Positions 28,476-41,787 of a stretch of 56,084 nucleotides of DNA are shown here, piece by piece; the first letter of the stretch is position 1, and the number at the start of each line of letters is the position of its first letter. The stretch is from Terriglobia bacterium (GTDB taxonomy: Bacteria; Acidobacteriota; Terriglobia; Terriglobales; Acidobacteriaceae). The notes under the pieces are model-generated. The model was not told the DNA's origin and searched no databases. It was given only the letters and a program-made list of their open reading frames with translations. The stretch is from positions 1 to 56,084 of the forward strand of contig JAIQFP010000027.1 in the NCBI GenBank assembly GCA_020073165.1. Direction: 5' to 3'. The position numbers and the translations under genes were made by a program.

Positions 28476-29081
28476 ATGGTCTTCGTCCTCGATAACTACG
28501 ACTCCTTCACCTATAACTTGGTCCAGTACCTGGGCGAACTGGGCGCAGAGGTCGTGGTGCGCCGCAACGACCAGGTAACCGTAGCCGAGGTGGAGGCGAT
28601 GCACCCGGAACGAATTGTCGTGTCGCCGGGACCGTGCACCCCGCAAGAAGCGGGGATCAGCGTGCAGTTGATCCGTCATTTTGCCGGCCAGGTGCCCGTG
28701 CTGGGAGTATGCCTGGGACATCAGGCCATTGGCGCGGCCTTCGGCGGCAAGGTGGTTCGGGCGAAAAGCCTGATGCACGGCAAGACCAGTCAGGTCGAGC
28801 ATGACGGGAAAACGATTTTCCAGGGCCTGCCTTCACCCATCACGGCGACGCGCTATCACTCTCTGGTTATCGAGGAAAAAAGCTTGCCCCGGGATCTGGA
28901 AGTGAGCGCGTTTGCCACCGACTGTGACGGGTCGCGAGTGATTATGGGGTTGCGGCATCGGAAGTGGCCGGTCGAGGGCGTGCAATTCCATCCTGAGAGC
29001 GTACTCACCACAGAAGGGAAGAAGTTGGTGCAGAACTTTCTGGGCTTGTGCCCGGGCGGTCCCGCGGATTTTAGCCAGTGA
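28476..29081 (+). CDS. trpG: Glutamine amidotransferase subunit (anthranilate/aminodeoxychorismate synthase component II)
   Basis: The 201-residue class I GATase has the oxyanion loop [12 protein letters not shown], the nucleophile in [12 protein letters not shown] (C79) and the His-Glu pair in VQFHPESV (H172, E174). It gives ammonia from glutamine to TrpE (or PabB). In many bacteria one protein serves both tryptophan and folate pathways. TrpE is encoded 11 kb away on the other strand, not adjacent. A strong hairpin (29093-29132) follows the stop codon. Confidence 0.92.
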
Positions 29082-29590: not shown

Positions 29591-32500
29591 TCACCCTGCC
29601 GGGCTCCACTCCGGAAGACCCAACTGGCCGACTATCTGGAGGAATCGGGGATCGGTGCGGAGTTGGTGATAGCCCGGCCACGTCCGCGCCAGCATGACAA
29701 ACATTGGATCCTTGTCGTCGAGCGCCCGCTGCGCGAACGCGATCGCCCCTTCCATGTCTCCCACCGCGGCGGCTGCGGGCGCGAGCAGCGAGGGCTGAAC
29801 GTACTCACGTGCGCTCCGCACCTCCACTTCGCGGTACACGGCGCGCGCACTGTCGGGTTTGCCCCATGCGGCGTAGATGGAAACCAGCGTTGTAAGCGCC
29901 CAGCTATGACGCCCTGACATCGCCAATGCCCGCTCGCATATTGCGGCCGCCTCTTCCCATTGAGCGTTGCACAGCAGCGCCTGCGTCAGGCTCCAGTGGG
30001 CCAAGTACGAGTTGGGATCGAGTTCCAGGCCACGCCGCCCGTGATCAACGGCTTCCGACAGCCGCCCGCTGCTCACGCCGGAGAAACACAGGATGACATT
30101 CGCGTACCCGGACAACGGGTCCACCTGCAAGAGGCGCAGTAACTCATCACGGGCTTCCTGCTCGCGTCCCGCCACCCACTGCAGGAAGAAAAGTCCGTAC
30201 CAGGCCCGGCCCTGGGGATAGTTAGGGTTCAGTTCGAGCGCTCGCCGAAATTCCCGCTCGGCGAGGGGAAAATCGAGCTCATACAGGAGTGCCGCGCAGG
30301 CCAGCGCGCTGTGCGCCTCGGCCAGGTCGGGGTCCAATTGCAGCGCTCGGCGTGCTGCCTCCAGGGCGCGGGGCATCACTTCTCCGGGCGGTTTGTAGCC
30401 CGAGTACCCGGAGGTGGTGTATCCATCCGCCAAACCGGCCCATGCCTGCGCGTACGCGGGATCGAGTGCAACGGCCTGGGTGAAACAGTCAATCGCCTTG
30501 GGAATGCTGAGTCCTCGCTGGTACAGCAAGGCTCGCCCCTTCAAGTACAGTTCGTACGCGCCCATGTGGCGGGTCGGTGGTTGCAGAGGCTGGCCTTCGG
30601 CGCTTGCGGCGAGCGATAACCGGAGTCGTCCGGCGATCGTCCTGGCGATTTCATCCTGGACCGCAAAGACATCTTCCAGGACGCGGTCGTAGCGTTCCGA
30701 CCAGAGCTGATAGCCGCTGGCGGCATCAATGAGCTGTGCGGTGATCCGAAGACGATCTCCCGATCGCCGCAGCGTGCCCTCGAGAATCGTAGCCACGCCG
30801 AGCTTGGTGCCCACCGAGCGCAGATCCTCGTTGCGCCCCTTGAAGGAAAACACCGAGCTGCGGCCCGCGACTCGAAGACCGGGAATGTGGGCCAAGGCGT
30901 TGATGATTTCCTCAGTGATGCCGTCGGCGAAGTACTCCTGCTCGGAATCGCCGGAGAGATTCTGGAAGGGCAGGACGGCGATGGCGGGCCGAGTGAGAGA
31001 GCCGGAGATGCTGCCCAGGTTGGCCGGTGCGGCCGCAGGAGCAGGAGCCGCGCTGTCCTCCTTGTCAGCAATCTCCAGCCCGGCCTTGCGCAAGCCGTCA
31101 ATCAGCTGCTTCCCGTACTCGGGACTAAACCACTTCTCGATATCCTTGGGTAGCGTGGCAGTAACATCCGGCCGCAGTCTGAGCAGGTCCCGCAGGGCTT
31201 TACCGGCCGCATCACGTTCCCCGAGCTGCCCGTAGACGGCTGCCATGTTCGCGTGCGCACCCCAGTGGCCCGGCAGATTGGTTTTGAGCGCGAAACTGAG
31301 TGCGCCGTGGTAATCGCCTTGGCGGTAGGCGTTGTAGAAGTTGGCATACCAGTACCATCCAGGATGATGGGGATTGAGCTGCTTGGCGCGCTCCGCCAGC
31401 GCGAGGCCGCGCTCCCAGTCGCCCGCATAGGTCAGCAACTCACCGAGGAAAGCGATCGAGTTGCCGTCCATGGGGTTGAGCGCGACGGCCCGCTCCGCCG
31501 CATTCCGGAAGCTCTGGAATTCCTTTTGGAAGAAAAGCGCCTGGGCCAGACTGCAATAGGCCAGGTGATTGGATGGCGCTGCCTCGACGGCACGCTGCGC
31601 GGCGGTTAAGCCGCTCGTCAGGGAATCAGCCTGCAGGTTGAAGCCTTGCCCGTATTCCTGGACGCACAATAACGCCAGCATAGCCCAGGCATCGGCGTAA
31701 GCCGGCGCCTTCCGCACCGCCAACTCCAGTCCATAGCGCGCATCGGCAAGATCTTCGGCGGTGACGCGCTCGAAGTAGCCGAAGCTGCGCAGCACTGCTT
31801 CGTAGGGGCTCAGCTGCTCGGGAGTGCGGCTGCGCACCGCCTCACTCATGCTCCGGGGCAGGACGCCGTGCATATCAGCAACCGTCGAAACAATCCGCGG
31901 AACCAAGTCATCCTGCAACTCGAAAACCGCCTCCGCTTGGAATGGGCGCTCGTAGGTTTCGGCCCAGAGATGGGCGCCCGAATTCGCGTCCACGAGTTGC
32001 ACCGCGAGGCGCAGCTTCGTCCCCGCCTGCCGCAGATTGCCTTCCATCACGTAGCGCGCGCCCAGTTCCTTGCCGCCAGTCCGCAGATCGGTTGCCTGGT
32101 TTGTGTAGCGGAGTGTCGCGCCGCGTGCGATCACCCTGAGGTAGGAGAATCGCGACAGGCCGGTGACGATGTCTTCGGTGAGCCCCTCGGCCAGAGCCGT
32201 GAGCTCGGCGCTGGCGCCGCCATACTTGAACGGCAGTACCGCGACCCAGAATCCTTCATCGGCGCGAACCGCTCCCGAGTCGGGCGCGGATGAACTCACC
32301 GGCGCGAGGATTGTTCCCCCCTCGGGGGCAATCTCGATCCCAGCCTTGCGCAGACCGTCGATCAGGCTCTTGACCAGTTCCGGGTCCCACCACTTCGCGC
32401 ACTCTTCGCGCGCCACCACGGCGAAATCCGGCCGCACGGCCAAAAGCTCTCGCGCTGCGTTGCGCGCCAGATGCAGCTCTCCCAGTTGTCCGTAGGTCGC

Positions 32501-35500
32501 GGCCAGCGCGAGTTCGTTGCGCCAGAAACCCGGCATGTTGACCTTCAGAGCGAATTCCAGAGCGCCGGGATAGTCGCCTTTTCTATATGCCCTGAAAAAT
32601 GGTGGGAACCAATACCATCCCGGATGATTCGGGTTGAGGTTTCTGGCCCTTTCCACCAGCTCGCACCCTCGATCCCAGTCGCCGGAGTAGGCAAGGAGAA
32701 ACCCCATGTATGCCATGGTGAAGCCGTCCAGGGGATTGAGCGCGATGGCCCGCTCGGCCGAGCTTCGGAAAGCTTGATTTTCCTTGCGAAAAAACAGGAC
32801 CGAGGCGAGGGCATGATGCGCCAGGTGGTTGGAGGGAGCGAGATCCACCGCCTTTCGCGCGGCGGCGAGGGCGCGTCCAACGGGATCCGGCCGCAGGTTG
32901 AAGCCATGGTTGTTTTCCTCCCGGTACAGCATGGCCAGCAGAGCCCAGCAGTCGGCATTCCCCGGGGCCTGTTGCACCGCACGTTCCAGGCCCGCCCTCA
33001 CGCTGGCGTGCTCCTCTTCATTGACATGCTTGAAATACGAGAATCCGCGCAGGAACGCTTCGTAGGGGGTGAGTTGATCGGGATCCTTCCCGCGGAGCGT
33101 TTGGCTCATGCTGTAGGGAAGAACGCCGTGAGTGTCGGCGACAGTGGAAACGATTCGAGGAACCAGGTCGTCTTGCAACTCGAAAACTGTTTCCGATTGG
33201 AAGGAGCGGTCGTAGGTCTCGGCCCAAAGATGCGCGCCGGAGTGAGTGTCGACGAGTTGCACCGAGAGGCGTAGCTTGGTTCCCGCCTGACGCAGGCTGC
33301 CTTCCATCACATAACGCGCGCCCAGTTCCTTGCCAGCCAATCGGACGTCGCCGGATTCGTGGGCGTAGCGCAATGTGGAACCGCGAGCGATGACCCTGAG
33401 ATAGGAGAACCGCGACAGGCCGGTGACAACGTCCTCGGTGAGTCCCTCGGCCAATGCGGTAAGTTCGGCGTTTGCACCGCCATACTTGAACGGCAGTACC
33501 GCGACCCAGAATCCTTCATCGGCACGAGTCGCTCCCGAGCCGGTGGTGACACGCGCCGCTCCTGAAGTTGCACTGGCGGGCGCCGGAGCCCGCTTCTCCG
33601 AATCTTCCGCTATTTCCAGTCCCGCCTTGCGCAGCCCGTCAATAAAGTGTTCGACCAGTTCGGGCTCCCACCACTTGACGAATTCCTCGCGCACCGCAGT
33701 GGCAGTGGCGAAGTCGGGTCGAAGGACAAGCAGATCCCGAACCGCTTTTTGCCCCGCTTCGCGCCGGCCGAGCTGCCCGAGCGATGCCGCCAGCGCACAG
33801 TGTGTGGCCCAATAGCCGGGCATGTTGATGCGGAGGGCAGCGTCAAGGGCCTCGGCGTATTGACCCTTGTTATAGGCATTGGCGAATAGCGCATTGTGGT
33901 ACCAGCCAGGATGGTTGGGATTCAGTTGCATGGCGGATTCCACCAACTTGCATCCGCGGTCCCAGTCGCCCGCATAAGCGATCAGCAGGCCCATAAAGGC
34001 AATGGTGGATCCATCCATGCGATTCAGCGCCATGGCCCGCTCCGCCGCCGCGCTAAAACCGAGCTTGTCCTTATGGAAGAAGAGACTTGTAGCCAGGGCC
34101 CAGTAGCCGAGGGCATTGGAGGGTGCCGCTGCCACGGCGCGCTGCGCCGCCGCGGTTGCCCGGCCAAGGGGATCCGGTCCGGGGTTGAACCCTTGCGCAT
34201 ACTCGCCGCGGTAAATCATCGATAGCATCGCCCAGCAGTCGCTCTGGTCGGGCGCGTTCTTTACGGCGCGCTCCAGGATCCGCCGCACGGTTGCATGTTC
34301 GTCTGGCGTGATTCGCTCAAAGTAGCTGAAGGTACGAAGTACGGCCTCATGCGGGGTCAACTGATCCTCGCTCTTGCTGCGGAGCGCTTCGCTCATCGTG
34401 CGCGGCAAGATACCGTACTGGTCGGCGACGGTGGACACGATCCGCGGGACGAGGTCGTCCTGAAGTTCAAGCACCGACTCTGGCTTGAAAGGATGATCAT
34501 AAGTCTCGGCCCACAGATGAGCCCCGGAGATTGTGTCCACGAGCTGCACGGCGAGCCGTAGCGTGGCTCCTACCAGGCGGAGACTGCCTTCCATAGCGTA
34601 ACGGGCGCCCAGTTCCTTGCCCACGGTCCGCAGATCGGAGGCCTGATTCGCGTAGCGCAGCGTCGAACTGCGTGCGATGACGCGCAAATACGAGAATCGT
34701 GAAAGGCCGGTCACGATATCTTCCGTCAGCCCCTCGGCTAGGACTGCCAGATCAGCGTTGGCTCCGCTGTACTTGAAGGGAAGCACTGCAACCCAGAACC
34801 CCTGCTCGGCGCGGGCAGCGCCCGAATCGGCCTTCGCGGCAGAACGGGAAATGTCAGCTGTTGGGGCTGCCGTTTCTGTATCCGGAATCTCCAACCCGGC
34901 CTTCCGCAAGCCGTCGATGAAGCGCTCGCCGTACTCGGGGTCCCAGACTTTCGCGACCTGCTTGCGCATGATGGCCGGGAGATCGGGCCGCACTTTCAGC
35001 AAATCCCGCACGGCCTTCGCGGCGGTGTCCGCTTCCCCGAGCTGACCGGAGGCGGCTGCTATGAACATGGGCGCGAGTGGGTGACCTTGCAGCTTCACTT
35101 TGAGCGCAAAGCTGAGCGCGCCGCGGTCGTCGCCCTGGCGATAAGCGTTGTAGAAATCGGCGAACCAGTACCATCCGGGATGATTAGGATTGAGCTGCTT
35201 GGCGCGCCCCGCCAGTTCCATGCCGCGCTCCCGCTCGCCTGCGTAGGTCATCAACTCGCCGAGAAGAGCAACCGAGTTGCCGTCCATGGGGTTGAGCGCG
35301 ATGGCTCGCTCCGCCGCATCCCGGAACGTATGGAATTCTTTTTGGTACGCGAGTACCTGGGCCAGACTGAAATAGGCCAGATGATTGGAGGGCCCTGCCT
35401 CGACGGCCCGGCGGGCGGCGGCGGCTCCGATCGCCAGGGCATCGGCCTGAAGGTTAAATGCATGCACGTAATCCTGGCCGCACAGGAACGCGAGCATAGC

Positions 35501-36976
35501 CCAGGTGTCGGCGTAATTCGGAGCCTTGCGCACCGCCGTTTCCAGTCCGGACCGCGCAGCAGTCAATTCTTCGGGGGTGCCCCGCTCGCAGTAGCCGAAG
35601 CTCCGCAGCACGGCCTCGTAGGGGCTCAACTGCTCGGGAGGGCGGCTGCGCAAAGCCTCACTCATGCTCCGGGGCAGAACTCCGTTCATATCAGCAATCG
35701 TCGAAACAATTCGTGGGACCAGGTCGTCCTGCAACTCGAAAACTGTTTCCGGGCTGAAAGTACGCTCGTAGTTCTCCGCCCAGAGGTGAGCGCCGGTCGT
35801 GGCATCCACCAGTTGTACCGCGAGCCGCAGCTTCGCCCCGGCCTGCCGCAGGCTGCCCTCCATCACGTATCGCGCGCCCAGTTCCTTGCCGATTGCCCGA
35901 ACATCTCCTGACTCGCTGGAGTATTTAGCCGTCGAACCGCGGGCAATCACCCGCAGGTAAGAGAATCGCGACAGTCCAGTGACGATGTCTGCCGTCAGCC
36001 CTTCGGCCAAAACCGTGAGGTCAGGGTTAGCGCCGCTGTATTTGAAGGCAAGCACCGCTACCCAGAACCCCTGCTCGGCACGCGCTGCGCCCGAGTCGGC
36101 GACGCGTGATGTTGAAACCGAAATCTTCTGGGACGTTTGCCGCGCCAGATCGCGAAATTCATTGGCGACATCGCGCGCCGTCTGCACGCGGTGGCTGGGA
36201 TCCTTCTCCAAACAACGCCGGATGACGCGCCCTAAGTCGGAAGGTAAATCCGGGCGAACTTCCGTCACAGGCGGCGGAGTGTCGCGCAGGATCGCGGAGA
36301 TCAGCTCGGCGGAAGAATTTCCGCAGAATGGCTGCTTTCCGGTCGCCATCTGGTGCAGCACCACGCCAAGCGAGAAGATGTCGGTCCGCGGATCCAGCGT
36401 GCGGCCCGAGACCTGCTCGGGTGACATGTAAGCGGGGGTGCCCATGACGACGCCAACCTCGGTTTGCCCGGCGGAGGTCATCGTCGCGCCCGTGTGCTTG
36501 TCGGCGCTGACGTCCTTCGCCAATCCGAAATCGAGGATCTTCACGCGGCCGTCGTTCGTGACCATGATGTTGGCGGGCTTCAGGTCGCGATGCACGATGC
36601 CTTTTTCATGCGCTGCGGCCAGCGCTCCCGCCAGCGCCCCGGCAATCTCGACGATTCGCTCGACCGGCAGCCCGCCCTCAGGAATGAGGCGGTCGAGCGA
36701 CTGCCCGTCGACCAGTTCCATGGTGAGAAAGTGGACGCCCTCGGCTTCTTCCACAGAAAAGATGGTGACGATGTGCGGATGGTTGAGGGCTGCCACCGCG
36801 CGAGCTTCGCGCTGGAAGCGTGCCAGCCGCTCGGGATCGCGGGCCATCTCTGCGGGCAGCACCTTGAGCGCCACGTCACGCCCGAGCTTGGAGTCGGTAG
36901 CTCGGTACACTTCGCCCATGCCGCCGGCACCGATGGCGGCGGTGATCTGGTAATGGGCGAGTGCGCGTCCGATCAG
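29591..36976 (-). CDS. Giant serine/threonine protein kinase with four tandem TolB/TPR modules and a fifth divergent one
   Basis: The frame is read from a CTG at 36976 (2461 residues). The kinase domain (about 1-277) has the glycine loop GAGGMGEV, the VALK lysine (K38), HRDLKPAN (H129) and DFG (D149), then APE-like MSPEQV. Four modules of 420-429 residues follow from about residue 294, each with a TolB/FlgO-like part (VAVLPFKYSGANADL, GLTEDIVTGLSRFSYLRVIAR, GARYVMEGSLR) and a TPR part ending in a YGERFIDGLRKAGLEI-type block. A fifth, more divergent module (from about 1985) has IAVLPFQNLSGDSEQEYFADG and TPRs to the C-terminus. No transmembrane helix is seen. The first ATG (36919) would lose the P-loop. 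The modules suggest a ligand- or partner-sensing role. Confidence 0.9.
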   Translation of the reverse strand: MIGRALAHYQITAAIGAGGMGEVYRATDSKLGRDVALKVLPAEMARDPERLARFQREARAVAALNHPHIVTIFSVEEAEGVHFLTMELVDGQSLDRLIPEGGLPVERIVEIAGALAGALAAAHEKGIVHRDLKPANIMVTNDGRVKILDFGLAKDVSADKHTGATMTSAGQTEVGVVMGTPAYMSPEQVSGRTLDPRTDIFSLGVVLHQMATGKQPFCGNSSAELISAILRDTPPPVTEVRPDLPSDLGRVIRRCLEKDPSHRVQTARDVANEFRDLARQTSQKISVSTSRVADSGAARAEQGFWVAVLAFKYSGANPDLTVLAEGLTADIVTGLSRFSYLRVIARGSTAKYSSESGDVRAIGKELGARYVMEGSLRQAGAKLRLAVQLVDATTGAHLWAENYERTFSPETVFELQDDLVPRIVSTIADMNGVLPRSMSEALRSRPPEQLSPYEAVLRSFGYCERGTPEELTAARSGLETAVRKAPNYADTWAMLAFLCGQDYVHAFNLQADALAIGAAAARRAVEAGPSNHLAYFSLAQVLAYQKEFHTFRDAAERAIALNPMDGNSVALLGELMTYAGERERGMELAGRAKQLNPNHPGWYWFADFYNAYRQGDDRGALSFALKVKLQGHPLAPMFIAAASGQLGEADTAAKAVRDLLKVRPDLPAIMRKQVAKVWDPEYGERFIDGLRKAGLEIPDTETAAPTADISRSAAKADSGAARAEQGFWVAVLPFKYSGANADLAVLAEGLTEDIVTGLSRFSYLRVIARSSTLRYANQASDLRTVGKELGARYAMEGSLRLVGATLRLAVQLVDTISGAHLWAETYDHPFKPESVLELQDDLVPRIVSTVADQYGILPRTMSEALRSKSEDQLTPHEAVLRTFSYFERITPDEHATVRRILERAVKNAPDQSDCWAMLSMIYRGEYAQGFNPGPDPLGRATAAAQRAVAAAPSNALGYWALATSLFFHKDKLGFSAAAERAMALNRMDGSTIAFMGLLIAYAGDWDRGCKLVESAMQLNPNHPGWYHNALFANAYNKGQYAEALDAALRINMPGYWATHCALAASLGQLGRREAGQKAVRDLLVLRPDFATATAVREEFVKWWEPELVEHFIDGLRKAGLEIAEDSEKRAPAPASATSGAARVTTGSGATRADEGFWVAVLPFKYGGANAELTALAEGLTEDVVTGLSRFSYLRVIARGSTLRYAHESGDVRLAGKELGARYVMEGSLRQAGTKLRLSVQLVDTHSGAHLWAETYDRSFQSETVFELQDDLVPRIVSTVADTHGVLPYSMSQTLRGKDPDQLTPYEAFLRGFSYFKHVNEEEHASVRAGLERAVQQAPGNADCWALLAMLYREENNHGFNLRPDPVGRALAAARKAVDLAPSNHLAHHALASVLFFRKENQAFRSSAERAIALNPLDGFTMAYMGFLLAYSGDWDRGCELVERARNLNPNHPGWYWFPPFFRAYRKGDYPGALEFALKVNMPGFWRNELALAATYGQLGELHLARNAARELLAVRPDFAVVAREECAKWWDPELVKSLIDGLRKAGIEIAPEGGTILAPVSSSAPDSGAVRADEGFWVAVLPFKYGGASAELTALAEGLTEDIVTGLSRFSYLRVIARGATLRYTNQATDLRTGGKELGARYVMEGNLRQAGTKLRLAVQLVDANSGAHLWAETYERPFQAEAVFELQDDLVPRIVSTVADMHGVLPRSMSEAVRSRTPEQLSPYEAVLRSFGYFERVTAEDLADARYGLELAVRKAPAYADAWAMLALLCVQEYGQGFNLQADSLTSGLTAAQRAVEAAPSNHLAYCSLAQALFFQKEFQSFRNAAERAVALNPMDGNSIAFLGELLTYAGDWERGLALAERAKQLNPHHPGWYWYANFYNAYRQGDYHGALSFALKTNLPGHWGAHANMAAVYGQLGERDAAGKALRDLLRLRPDVTATLPKDIEKWFSPEYGKQLIDGLRKAGLEIADKEDSAAPAPAAAPANLGSISGSLTRPAIAVLPFQNLSGDSEQEYFADGITEEIINALAHIPGLRVAGRSSVFSFKGRNEDLRSVGTKLGVATILEGTLRRSGDRLRITAQLIDAASGYQLWSERYDRVLEDVFAVQDEIARTIAGRLRLSLAASAEGQPLQPPTRHMGAYELYLKGRALLYQRGLSIPKAIDCFTQAVALDPAYAQAWAGLADGYTTSGYSGYKPPGEVMPRALEAARRALQLDPDLAEAHSALACAALLYELDFPLAEREFRRALELNPNYPQGRAWYGLFFLQWVAGREQEARDELLRLLQVDPLSGYANVILCFSGVSSGRLSEAVDHGRRGLELDPNSYLAHWSLTQALLCNAQWEEAAAICERALAMSGRHSWALTTLVSIYAAWGKPDSARAVYREVEVRSAREYVQPSLLAPAAAAVGDMEGAIAFAQRALDDKDPMFVMLARTWPGYHQLRTDPRFLQIVGQLGLPEWSPAG
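31010..36097 (-). repeat. Four tandem 1.26-1.29 kb coding repeats within the kinase gene
   Basis: Equivalent positions (the S-G-A-x-R-A-[ED]-[QE]-G-F-W block) fall at 36097, 34828, 33541 and 32281, giving units of 1269, 1287 and 1260 bp; the fourth unit ends near 31010, where the divergent fifth begins. The copies are similar but clearly distinct at the protein level, so the duplication is not an assembly stutter. Confidence 0.85.
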
Positions 36977-37228
36977 ATTGAGCCTCCCGGGAGCCGGCGG
37001 GGGTCAGCGGCGGCTTTGTTGCAGTCCAAACGCCGCGCCGATTCTACACCCCGGCGCGGGCACTGGAAACCGCAGTCGATCAATGCAAAACGGCAATTTT
37101 TCAATCGGAATCGGACGAATCCGGGCCCCTCCAGATGAGGTATCTCCGCAACTCAGACGAAACAAACGATCTGGGGTGTACACTTGGGCCGCTTCAATCC
37201 AAGAGAAAATCAACAAAAGGGGGGAGCA

Positions 37229-40068: not shown

Positions 40069-41550
40069 CTAGCTCCCGCTCCTCGCCACTTCCACCGCCC
40101 TCAGCACTGCCTGCGCCTTGTTCATGCACTCGTCGTACTCGCGCGCGGGGTCGGAGTCCGCGACAATCCCTGCCCCCGCCTGCAGGTAGGCGCGCTTGCC
40201 CCGAACCACCATGGTGCGAATCGCGATGCAGGAGTCGAGGTTGCCGGCGAAGTCGGCGTACAGCACTGAGCCGCCGTACACTCCACGCCGCACCGGCTCC
40301 AGCTCTTCGATGATCTGCATGGCTCGAACTTTAGGCGCGCCGCTCAGCGTGCCCGCAGGAAAACACGCGGCAAAGGCATCGAGCGCGTCAAGTTCTGCTC
40401 GCAACTTCCCTTCCAGCGCGGAAACGATGTGCATCACGTGTGAGTAGCGCTCCACGTACATCAAGTCGCGGACTTTCACCGACCCGTATTCGCTCACCCG
40501 GCCGAGATCGTTGCGCCCAAGGTCCACCAGCATCACGTGCTCCGCTCGCTCTTTCTCGTCGGCCAGCATTTCTTTTTCCAGGCGCTGGTCTTCAGCTTCG
40601 TCGCGGCCACGGGGATGCGTCCCGGCGATGGGGCGGTATTCCAGCTTGCGTCCGGTCACACGCACCAGCATCTCCGGCGACGAGCCCAGCACATGGGTAT
40701 CACCCAGGTGCAGGAAATACATGTAGGGCGAAGGGTTCACGGTCCGCAGGGCGCGATACACATCAAAGGGCTGGACTCCGGGCGCGAAGTCGAGGCGTTG
40801 CGAGAGCACGATCTGGAAGATGTCTCCGGCGGCAATGTATTCTTTGGCGCGCGCGACCGATTGCAGGAAACGCTGCCGGCTGGTACCGGCGTGAATCTTC
40901 AGGTTGGAATTCCGCCTGGCTTCAGCTTTAACGTAGAAGCCGCCAGACAGGCCCCGAGCCAGCTTCTTCTCGATCGCGCTAATGTCCGCCACGGCACGGT
41001 CGTAGGCCCGGCGTGGAGGTTCTCGCGAAACATCCGCGGTCGCGATGATATGGATCTGGTGGCGCAGGTGGTCGAAAGCTAACAGGCGATCGAAGAACAT
41101 CAGCACGCAATCGGGCAGCGCGAGGTCATCCTTGGCCTGTTCGCGAATGTTCTCCAGTTGGCGAACCATGTCGTAGGCAAAATAGCCCACGGCGCCGGCG
41201 GTGAGTGGCGGCAATCCGGACACGCTGGCCGGCCGATGCTGACGGAGAAGCTCTCTTGCGATTTGGAAAACGCTGCCCTTGCGCTGCTCGCGGCTTCTCC
41301 CTCGTTGCACAGTTATCTCTTGCCCCCGGGCTTGGACTCGCATATAAGGACGGGCACCGAGAAAGGTGTAGCGGCCGATCTGCTCGCCACGCTCCACCGA
41401 TTCCAGCAGGAAGGCATAAGGCTCGTTCGCGGCAACAGAGAGGAAGGCAGAGACCGGGGTCAACAGGTCAGCCGTAACCGACTTGACCACGGGTACTAGC
41501 GTGGCTTGGCGAGCCAGGCGCGCGAATTCGCTGTAATCCGGGCCGAGCAT
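40069..41550 (-). CDS. trpE: Anthranilate synthase component I
   Basis: The 493-residue chorismate-utilising enzyme makes anthranilate from chorismate with TrpG. The N-terminal LLES motif (YAFLLESVE) is the tryptophan-binding feedback site and favours TrpE over PabB. The C-terminal catalytic domain has PYMYFLHLGD, RPIAGTHPRGRD (chorismate/Mg binding), and FPAGTLSGAPKVRAMQIIEELEP. ATG start at 41550 with AAGAG upstream. It is not in a trp operon here, and no attenuator is obvious in the 237 bp upstream. Confidence 0.94.
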   Translation of the reverse strand: MLGPDYSEFARLARQATLVPVVKSVTADLLTPVSAFLSVAANEPYAFLLESVERGEQIGRYTFLGARPYMRVQARGQEITVQRGRSREQRKGSVFQIARELLRQHRPASVSGLPPLTAGAVGYFAYDMVRQLENIREQAKDDLALPDCVLMFFDRLLAFDHLRHQIHIIATADVSREPPRRAYDRAVADISAIEKKLARGLSGGFYVKAEARRNSNLKIHAGTSRQRFLQSVARAKEYIAAGDIFQIVLSQRLDFAPGVQPFDVYRALRTVNPSPYMYFLHLGDTHVLGSSPEMLVRVTGRKLEYRPIAGTHPRGRDEAEDQRLEKEMLADEKERAEHVMLVDLGRNDLGRVSEYGSVKVRDLMYVERYSHVMHIVSALEGKLRAELDALDAFAACFPAGTLSGAPKVRAMQIIEELEPVRRGVYGGSVLYADFAGNLDSCIAIRTMVVRGKRAYLQAGAGIVADSDPAREYDECMNKAQAVLRAVEVARSGS

Positions 41551-41787
41551 GTGTACTCTTGAGTGCGTTTCGAGGGCGCAGTGGGTTCATTATAGGGGGA
41601 GCGCGTCCGCTGCGCGCTGAGCCCACTCTGCGTCTTGCTGAAGGCGAGGTGTGGCAGGGCGGGATCCTTCGCCTTTGCTCAGCGCAGCAGTCCCGACGCT
41701 AGGGCGGCATTACCCTCGTAACCAGCAAATGAATTGACGGATCCCGTCAATGCGTTGGAAGATGAGGGTTTATCGCAGTGGGGGCGT

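Follow-up and report, generated by a model that had tools for sequence, protein, structure and literature searches.

The window analysed here is a stretch of 56,084 nucleotides from a Terriglobia bacterium, a soil acidobacterium. On its minus strand it carries a gene for a protein of 2461 amino acids (29591-36976), an open frame without internal stops. The frame begins with CTG at 36976, 6 nt behind a ribosome-binding-like GGGAGG (36983-36988, minus strand). Both elements are kept in the corresponding locus of a sister species (L031), and the CTG aligned with the ATG of a more distant relative (L071). The first in-frame ATG/GTG/TTG (36919) was rejected as start codon, as it would yield 2442 residues and a kinase without its glycine loop. 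Gene callers limited to ATG, GTG and TTG would shorten the kinase here (CTG and GGGAGG, 36974-36988, minus strand). The neighbouring genes (trpG-like, PilZ, AMIN, CAAX protease and trpE) gave no functional clue. The trpG-like class-I glutamine amidotransferase (28476-29081, plus strand) and the trpE-like anthranilate synthase component I (40072-41586, minus strand) are separated by about 11 kb of DNA that includes the kinase gene.

Residues 9-266 (36179-36952, minus strand) form a Ser/Thr kinase domain (PF00069, 3.1e-53) with the motifs GAGGMGEV, VALK, E57, HRDLKPAN, DFG and SPE; E57 was invariant across 47 sequences. Its predicted fold resembled PknB (5u94) in a structure search (Z 34.3, rmsd 1.6 over 256 residues). 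Because it carries the glycine loop, the VxK lysine, HRD and DFG, the domain was classified as a Hanks-type (PknB-like) Ser/Thr kinase. Assignment to the PASTA kinases was rejected: the PknB/Stk1 equivalog NF033483 scored 315 bits against a curated cut-off of 450, and residues 8-284 covered only profile positions 8-275 of 563. PADLOC anti-phage kinase profiles also matched, all within residues 2-300 (kinase and linker) for the 25 of 37 matching families listed. The whole protein had 80 matches in its own genome (4.6 Mb), several tens of which concern the kinase domain; the genome thus has a greatly expanded kinase family.

The kinase is followed by modules M1 (residues 303-725, 34802-36070), M2 (726-1154, 33515-34801), M3 (1155-1574, 32255-33514) and M4 (1575-1996, 30989-32254) and by a divergent TolB/TPR unit, M5 (1997-2461, 29594-30988), all on the minus strand. 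Each of M1-M4 spans 420-429 residues (about 422); M1 consists of an alpha/beta cap, a TPR solenoid and a linker. Pairwise identity was 57.4-70.7% among M1-M4 and 25.2-27.4% between each of these and M5, and the DNA of M1-M4 diverged by at least 22%. A DNA repeat finder returned four copies with spacings of 1260, 1287 and 1269. A long soluble kinase with four related units and one distant fifth is thereby confirmed, as the first-pass annotation had described it from the sequence; Pfam matches, motifs and identities agree. Its module starts had the correct spacing but lay 9 codons too early, in the conserved end of the preceding linker; the starts are at 36070, 34801, 33514 and 32254 (residues 303, 726, 1155 and 1575). 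Linkers tend to finish in a conserved sequence resembling SGAxRA(D/E)E, in which position -4 is R in 90% of the 58 linkers between modules and in 68% of the 88 stretches ahead of a first module. A DNA-conserved seam was not found at the module starts (silent identity 0.47, vs 0.45 further on).

The highest 19-residue hydropathy of the whole protein was 1.37, so that it has no membrane helix, as had been noted before. It had also been assumed that kinases of this type normally carry one unit and a membrane helix. The helix is indeed usual in the own genome, where 24 of 26 other kinases pulled out had a helix-like stretch (1.9 or more) after the kinase. The assumption is not supported in the subfamily, defined by a kinase, a linker without membrane helix and at least one M-type module, all of which the window protein has: none of its 61 kinase-to-module linkers reached 1.9 (highest 1.63), and solubility is therefore a subfamily trait and not peculiar to the window protein. 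Outside the linker, values of 1.9 or more occurred in three of the 61 frames (L052 2.44, L105 2.36, L043 1.9). Linker length was 20-66 residues in 60/61 and 252 in L064. M5 represents a unit type common in the own genome. Six kinases there share the order of kinase, then M5-type unit (three genes of L156; L158; L171; L172). They differ from the window protein in having a single such unit, a helix-like stretch in five of six (not L171) and no module of the M1-M4 type.

AlphaFold models were built for the kinase with M1 (710 residues; mean pLDDT 85.9, pTM 0.58) and for M3-M4 (843 residues; 87.0 and 0.67). The pTM of the former is low, so the placing of the kinase relative to M1 is not readable from the model. 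In both models an alpha/beta cap, about 130 residues long, leads into a helical solenoid, with high confidence inside the units. pLDDT fell below 50 at residues 283-301, between kinase and M1, and at residues 399-419 of the M3-M4 model, where the linker is predicted to be disordered or flexible. In structure searches, the solenoid matched TPR proteins, e.g. OGT and APC/C subunits; the match lists were taken up by TPR proteins and kinases. Assignment as a TPR protein was based on these solved matches, the helical solenoid and several Pfam TPR families above cut-off over the whole protein. When the cap sequence was compared with solved structures, three weak matches were obtained (best E 0.14).

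Profile searches with the whole protein matched TolB (TIGR02800, 5.2e-22, four stretches) and CadC (NF007540, 5.3e-16, far under the NCBIfam cut-off), both with the best stretch in M5, and LpoB (PF13036, 4.7e-9), with the best stretch in M1. For LpoB, 36.7 bits summed over the protein exceed the gathering threshold of 22.3, which every single stretch alone fails to reach. A full TolB protein of the Tol-Pal system was rejected (78 bits vs a cut-off of 343; best stretch positions 8-148 of 418), as was a FlgO domain (PF17680, 19.8 bits, below the gathering threshold of 22.6). By its profile matches the protein resembles alpha/beta domains of the TolB-N, LpoB and FlgO type and CadC-type regulators, and differs from them in that its cap is joined to TPRs and a kinase. 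Mean entropy was 1.15 bits in the cap vs 1.76 bits in the TPR part, and identity among the window copies was 75-85% vs 51-71%.

Bacterial Hanks-type kinases with C-terminal TPR arrays occur in myxobacteria and Planctomycetota, e.g. Ca. Uabimicrobium amorphum (PMC11032199, accessible text). Like the window protein, these have a kinase and then many TPRs in one chain. As described in that text, however, their TPRs are plain tandem repeats, and most of these proteins span the membrane once and carry repeats predicted to be periplasmic, whereas the window protein is soluble and repeats a compound cap-plus-TPR unit of about 420 residues. The TPR domain of the soluble actinobacterial kinase PknG has been proposed to link the detection of signals with the phosphorylation of substrates (PMC8546545, accessible text). 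There PknG appears with one TPR domain and no array, so that the analogy is mechanistic only.

Searches with M4 detected modules in 30/398 genomes of a family sample (E <= 1e-60), 25/399 of a class sample (1e-40) and 15/396 of a phylum sample (1e-60); the samples overlap, the genome of the window is counted in each, and only four candidate places were scored per genome. In the own genome outside this gene, identity was at most 39% among the matches listed (29 of 77 candidates scored). Related loci were the best 80 of 96 candidates from similarity searches (78 loci) and yielded 48 non-redundant uncut kinase proteins, which are therefore no census. Kinase plus one module was found in 19 of these and two or more modules in 23, so the expectation of a single unit is not supported in the subfamily either. 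Four or five modules were present in three: L049 (kinase and four modules), L047 (kinase, four modules and M5-type unit, a 2457-residue frame with the layout of the window) and L032 (kinase, five modules and M5-type unit, 2914 residues). Modules without kinase were found in 21 uncut frames, partly fragments. Removal of near-duplicates and of the window itself reduced 115 module frames to 93; a few frames (e.g. L102, L105) represent parts of genes that are broken. The scores of L107 equal those of L123, which is from a genome of the window's class, and the label 'Betaproteobacteria' of L107 is doubtful. Genome G836 (one contig, 5.1 Mb, 85% complete) had one kinase with two modules and two kinases each with one module and an M5-type unit. 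Module matches crossing one or two in-frame stops were seen in G175 (e.g. C2:1877011-1878204), G218, G234, G301 and G323; some of these stops may be the gene's own end. The module-array kinase is a real, sizeable and recurrent architecture that is not unique to the window. The first-pass annotation had allowed for the layout being common and already described: it does recur in relatives, and no published description of kinase module arrays was found in titles and abstract openings of the open-licence literature.

Three loci show how such arrays differ between close relatives. L031, the sister-species locus, is syntenic with the window on both sides and is identical in the overlap to L002 of the same-genus genome G001. 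It has the layout kinase-M1-M2-M3 and is 94.75% identical to the window from the kinase to M3. The segment 29565-32320, comprising the end of the M3 linker, M4 and M5, has no counterpart in L031, and the L031 gene closes with its own stop after M3. The more distant L071 has the layout kinase-M2-M3-M5, with identities to the window of 91% (M2), 89% (M3) and 86% (M5, amino acids). On the downstream side of L071, the DNA match resumes about 5 kb past the gene, once a further kinase gene has been passed; on the upstream side, the sole match found was an inverted one of 165 bases. As L071 retains the M5 that L031 is without, sequence comparison indicates that M5 was probably present in the common ancestor and then lost in L031.

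Between window and L031, dS was 0.16 for M1 and 0.37-0.40 for kinase, M2 and M3. In blocks of 150, identity was 95-99% throughout about 36.1-35.2 kb and 84-97% elsewhere in the gene. This block nearly coincides with M1 and may reflect a recent exchange between the two species. The dN/dS ratio was 0.03-0.09 against L031 for kinase, M1, M2 and M3, and 0.03-0.10 when L071 was included, indicating purifying selection throughout; this agrees with the earlier suggestion that the copies are retained. The best reading of the three loci is that whole modules come and go between close relatives, the array being edited in evolution.

The first-pass annotation had taken the four modules for a fourfold tandem duplication, and this was not borne out. 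A maximum-likelihood tree of 37 arrays was built from 97 of 147 modules, restricted to those that reach 340 residues and belong to proteins with more than one module. The nearest relative by path lay in the same protein for 0/97 modules; the two long-branched modules of L005 do pair in the tree. An AU test on the four window modules alone is trivial because L031 carries orthologues; in the meaningful test, a single clade of the nine modules of window, L031 and L071 was rejected (log-likelihood 424 lower, p-AU 4e-48). Fourfold duplication in place is rejected on these two results. The nearest relatives of M4 are in arrays of other organisms (L038, L039 and L040; 80% identity to L040) vs 63-71% to its neighbours. 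Silent divergence between M1 and M4 was fairly low (dS 0.67), and over its first 60 codons M4 is as near to M3 as to any other module, so that parts of M4 may be more closely tied to the neighbouring modules. Exchange among the four window copies was not detected in the longest runs of silent matches (all p >= 0.095); with two outside modules added, the lowest p was 0.057 (M2 with L040).

For the order of modules, types were defined as supported clades, with a path cut-off of 1.0 in the main test. Absolute position was variable and relative order mostly constant. One of 11 recurring pairs was seen in both orders (random mean 6.0), compared with 1/9 at a cut-off of 0.8 (random 4.8) and 4/14 with the coarser types at 1.2 (random 8.6). 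All orders became compatible after one array (L035) of 29 was removed, which 0/60 random orders matched (58 draws needed more than three arrays dropped and two needed three). Without four near-orthologous arrays one of 25 had to go, as in 1/60 random draws; in this set P was 0.07 for pairs in both orders and, for types in cycles, 0.18 with L035 and 0.0012 without it, L035 having been chosen post hoc. Free shuffling of modules is disfavoured by the tests on clade-defined types, order conflicts having come from hand-made types. These tests are suggestive of, and do not prove, a module order that is mostly kept; equally suggestively, such an order would result from losses and exchange in register.

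The modules are not confined to kinases. Among 21 proteins with a non-kinase N-terminal part, ten were scanned and seven had an adenylate/guanylate cyclase (L044, L062, L040), a TIR domain (L096, L103) or an OmpR/CadC-type DNA-binding domain (L126, L074) before the modules; one of the remainder gave a sub-threshold match and two gave none. Occurring behind kinase, cyclase, TIR and DNA-binding domains, the modules are portable regulatory parts and probably exchangeable input units. The TIR fusions to a cap-plus-TPR module are at L096:7290-8018 and L103:7275-8018. An AAA_16 ATPase with a TPR part, STAND-like, was seen behind the kinase-module array in L176 (5459-8203) and L054 (10692-13361); PknK is a kinase with an AAA-like and a TPR part. 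Beside 47 loci no widespread partner gene recurred (further kinases at 15, two other frame clusters at three each).

As the best explanation, to which we give about an even chance, the protein would be a cytosolic Hanks-type kinase whose string of cap-plus-TPR modules acts as several separate protein- or ligand-binding inputs that set its activity or targeting. Each module would bind something different, binding would control the kinase by analogy with the TPR domain of PknG, and module turnover would alter which inputs are read. The same module behind other output domains, the intact kinase motifs, purifying selection, a well-conserved cap with a more divergent TPR part, the linkers predicted to be flexible and the whole-module differences between close relatives are consistent with this. 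Against it, different groove ligands would predict a variable groove, and no hypervariability was seen at the TPR groove positions used, which we take to be the canonical ones (groove vs rest 0.06 bits, p 0.37); the lack of a widely recurring partner gene at the 47 loci also counts against it, as do the uninformative neighbouring genes and the low pTM of the kinase-M1 model.

It is unlikely that the array is instead an output scaffold, whose TPR modules bring various substrates to a single kinase without any sensing. TPR solenoids are protein-binding folds, with OGT and APC/C subunits among the solved matches, and the predicted flexibility of the M3-M4 linker would suit such a role. However, the same modules stand behind cyclase, TIR and DNA-binding domains, whose substrates (ATP/GTP, NAD+ and DNA, respectively) need no protein recruitment. 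An oligomerisation platform, in which the conserved caps would pair with one another and the number of copies would adjust clustering and trans-autophosphorylation, would account for the cap being the most conserved part and for a module number ranging from one to five. We consider it quite unlikely, as stickiness alone would not readily explain TPR parts that have diverged and are held under purifying selection.

Copy number might also be neutral, with units gained and lost by recombination without functional effect. Both M4 and M5 are missing from this locus in the sister species, which can therefore do without them, yet modules are kept by purifying selection, no exchange signal was found among the four window copies, and the relative order of module types was more consistent than random in the main test; neutrality is accordingly rated very unlikely. 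Just as doubtful is a broader proposal, in which soil bacteria possess a general family of recombining receptors and the module supplies their receptor part; such an editable multi-input receptor would work like NLR-like immune receptors and possibly sense other microbes or phages. Here interchangeable N-terminal effectors (kinase, cyclase, TIR, DNA-binding) would be combined with a string of diverged cap-plus-TPR sensors, which genes would gain, lose and swap with one another while their order is mostly kept, and some members would end in the AAA_16-TPR part. An assembly or binning artefact is hardly credible even for a draft assembly of 35 contigs, since a DNA difference of at least 22% makes a repeat assembly error unlikely, syntenic orthologues of M1-M3 exist in L031 and of M5 in L071, four-module arrays are found in other drafts (L047 and L049; also L045 and L038, both with a frame truncated at the 5' end), and the one-contig G836 holds a two-module kinase.

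The earlier interpretation is therefore partly supported; what is chiefly added to it is the turnover of modules at a single locus and an origin other than simple local copying. Three close relatives differ by whole modules on one kinase, and the family offers a natural graded series of one to five modules, in which the effect of each module can be asked directly. The multi-input reading would make these differences changes in what the kinase responds to. The array presents a case of a bacterial signalling protein evolving by gain and loss of units of about 420 residues whose closest relatives lie in other proteins.
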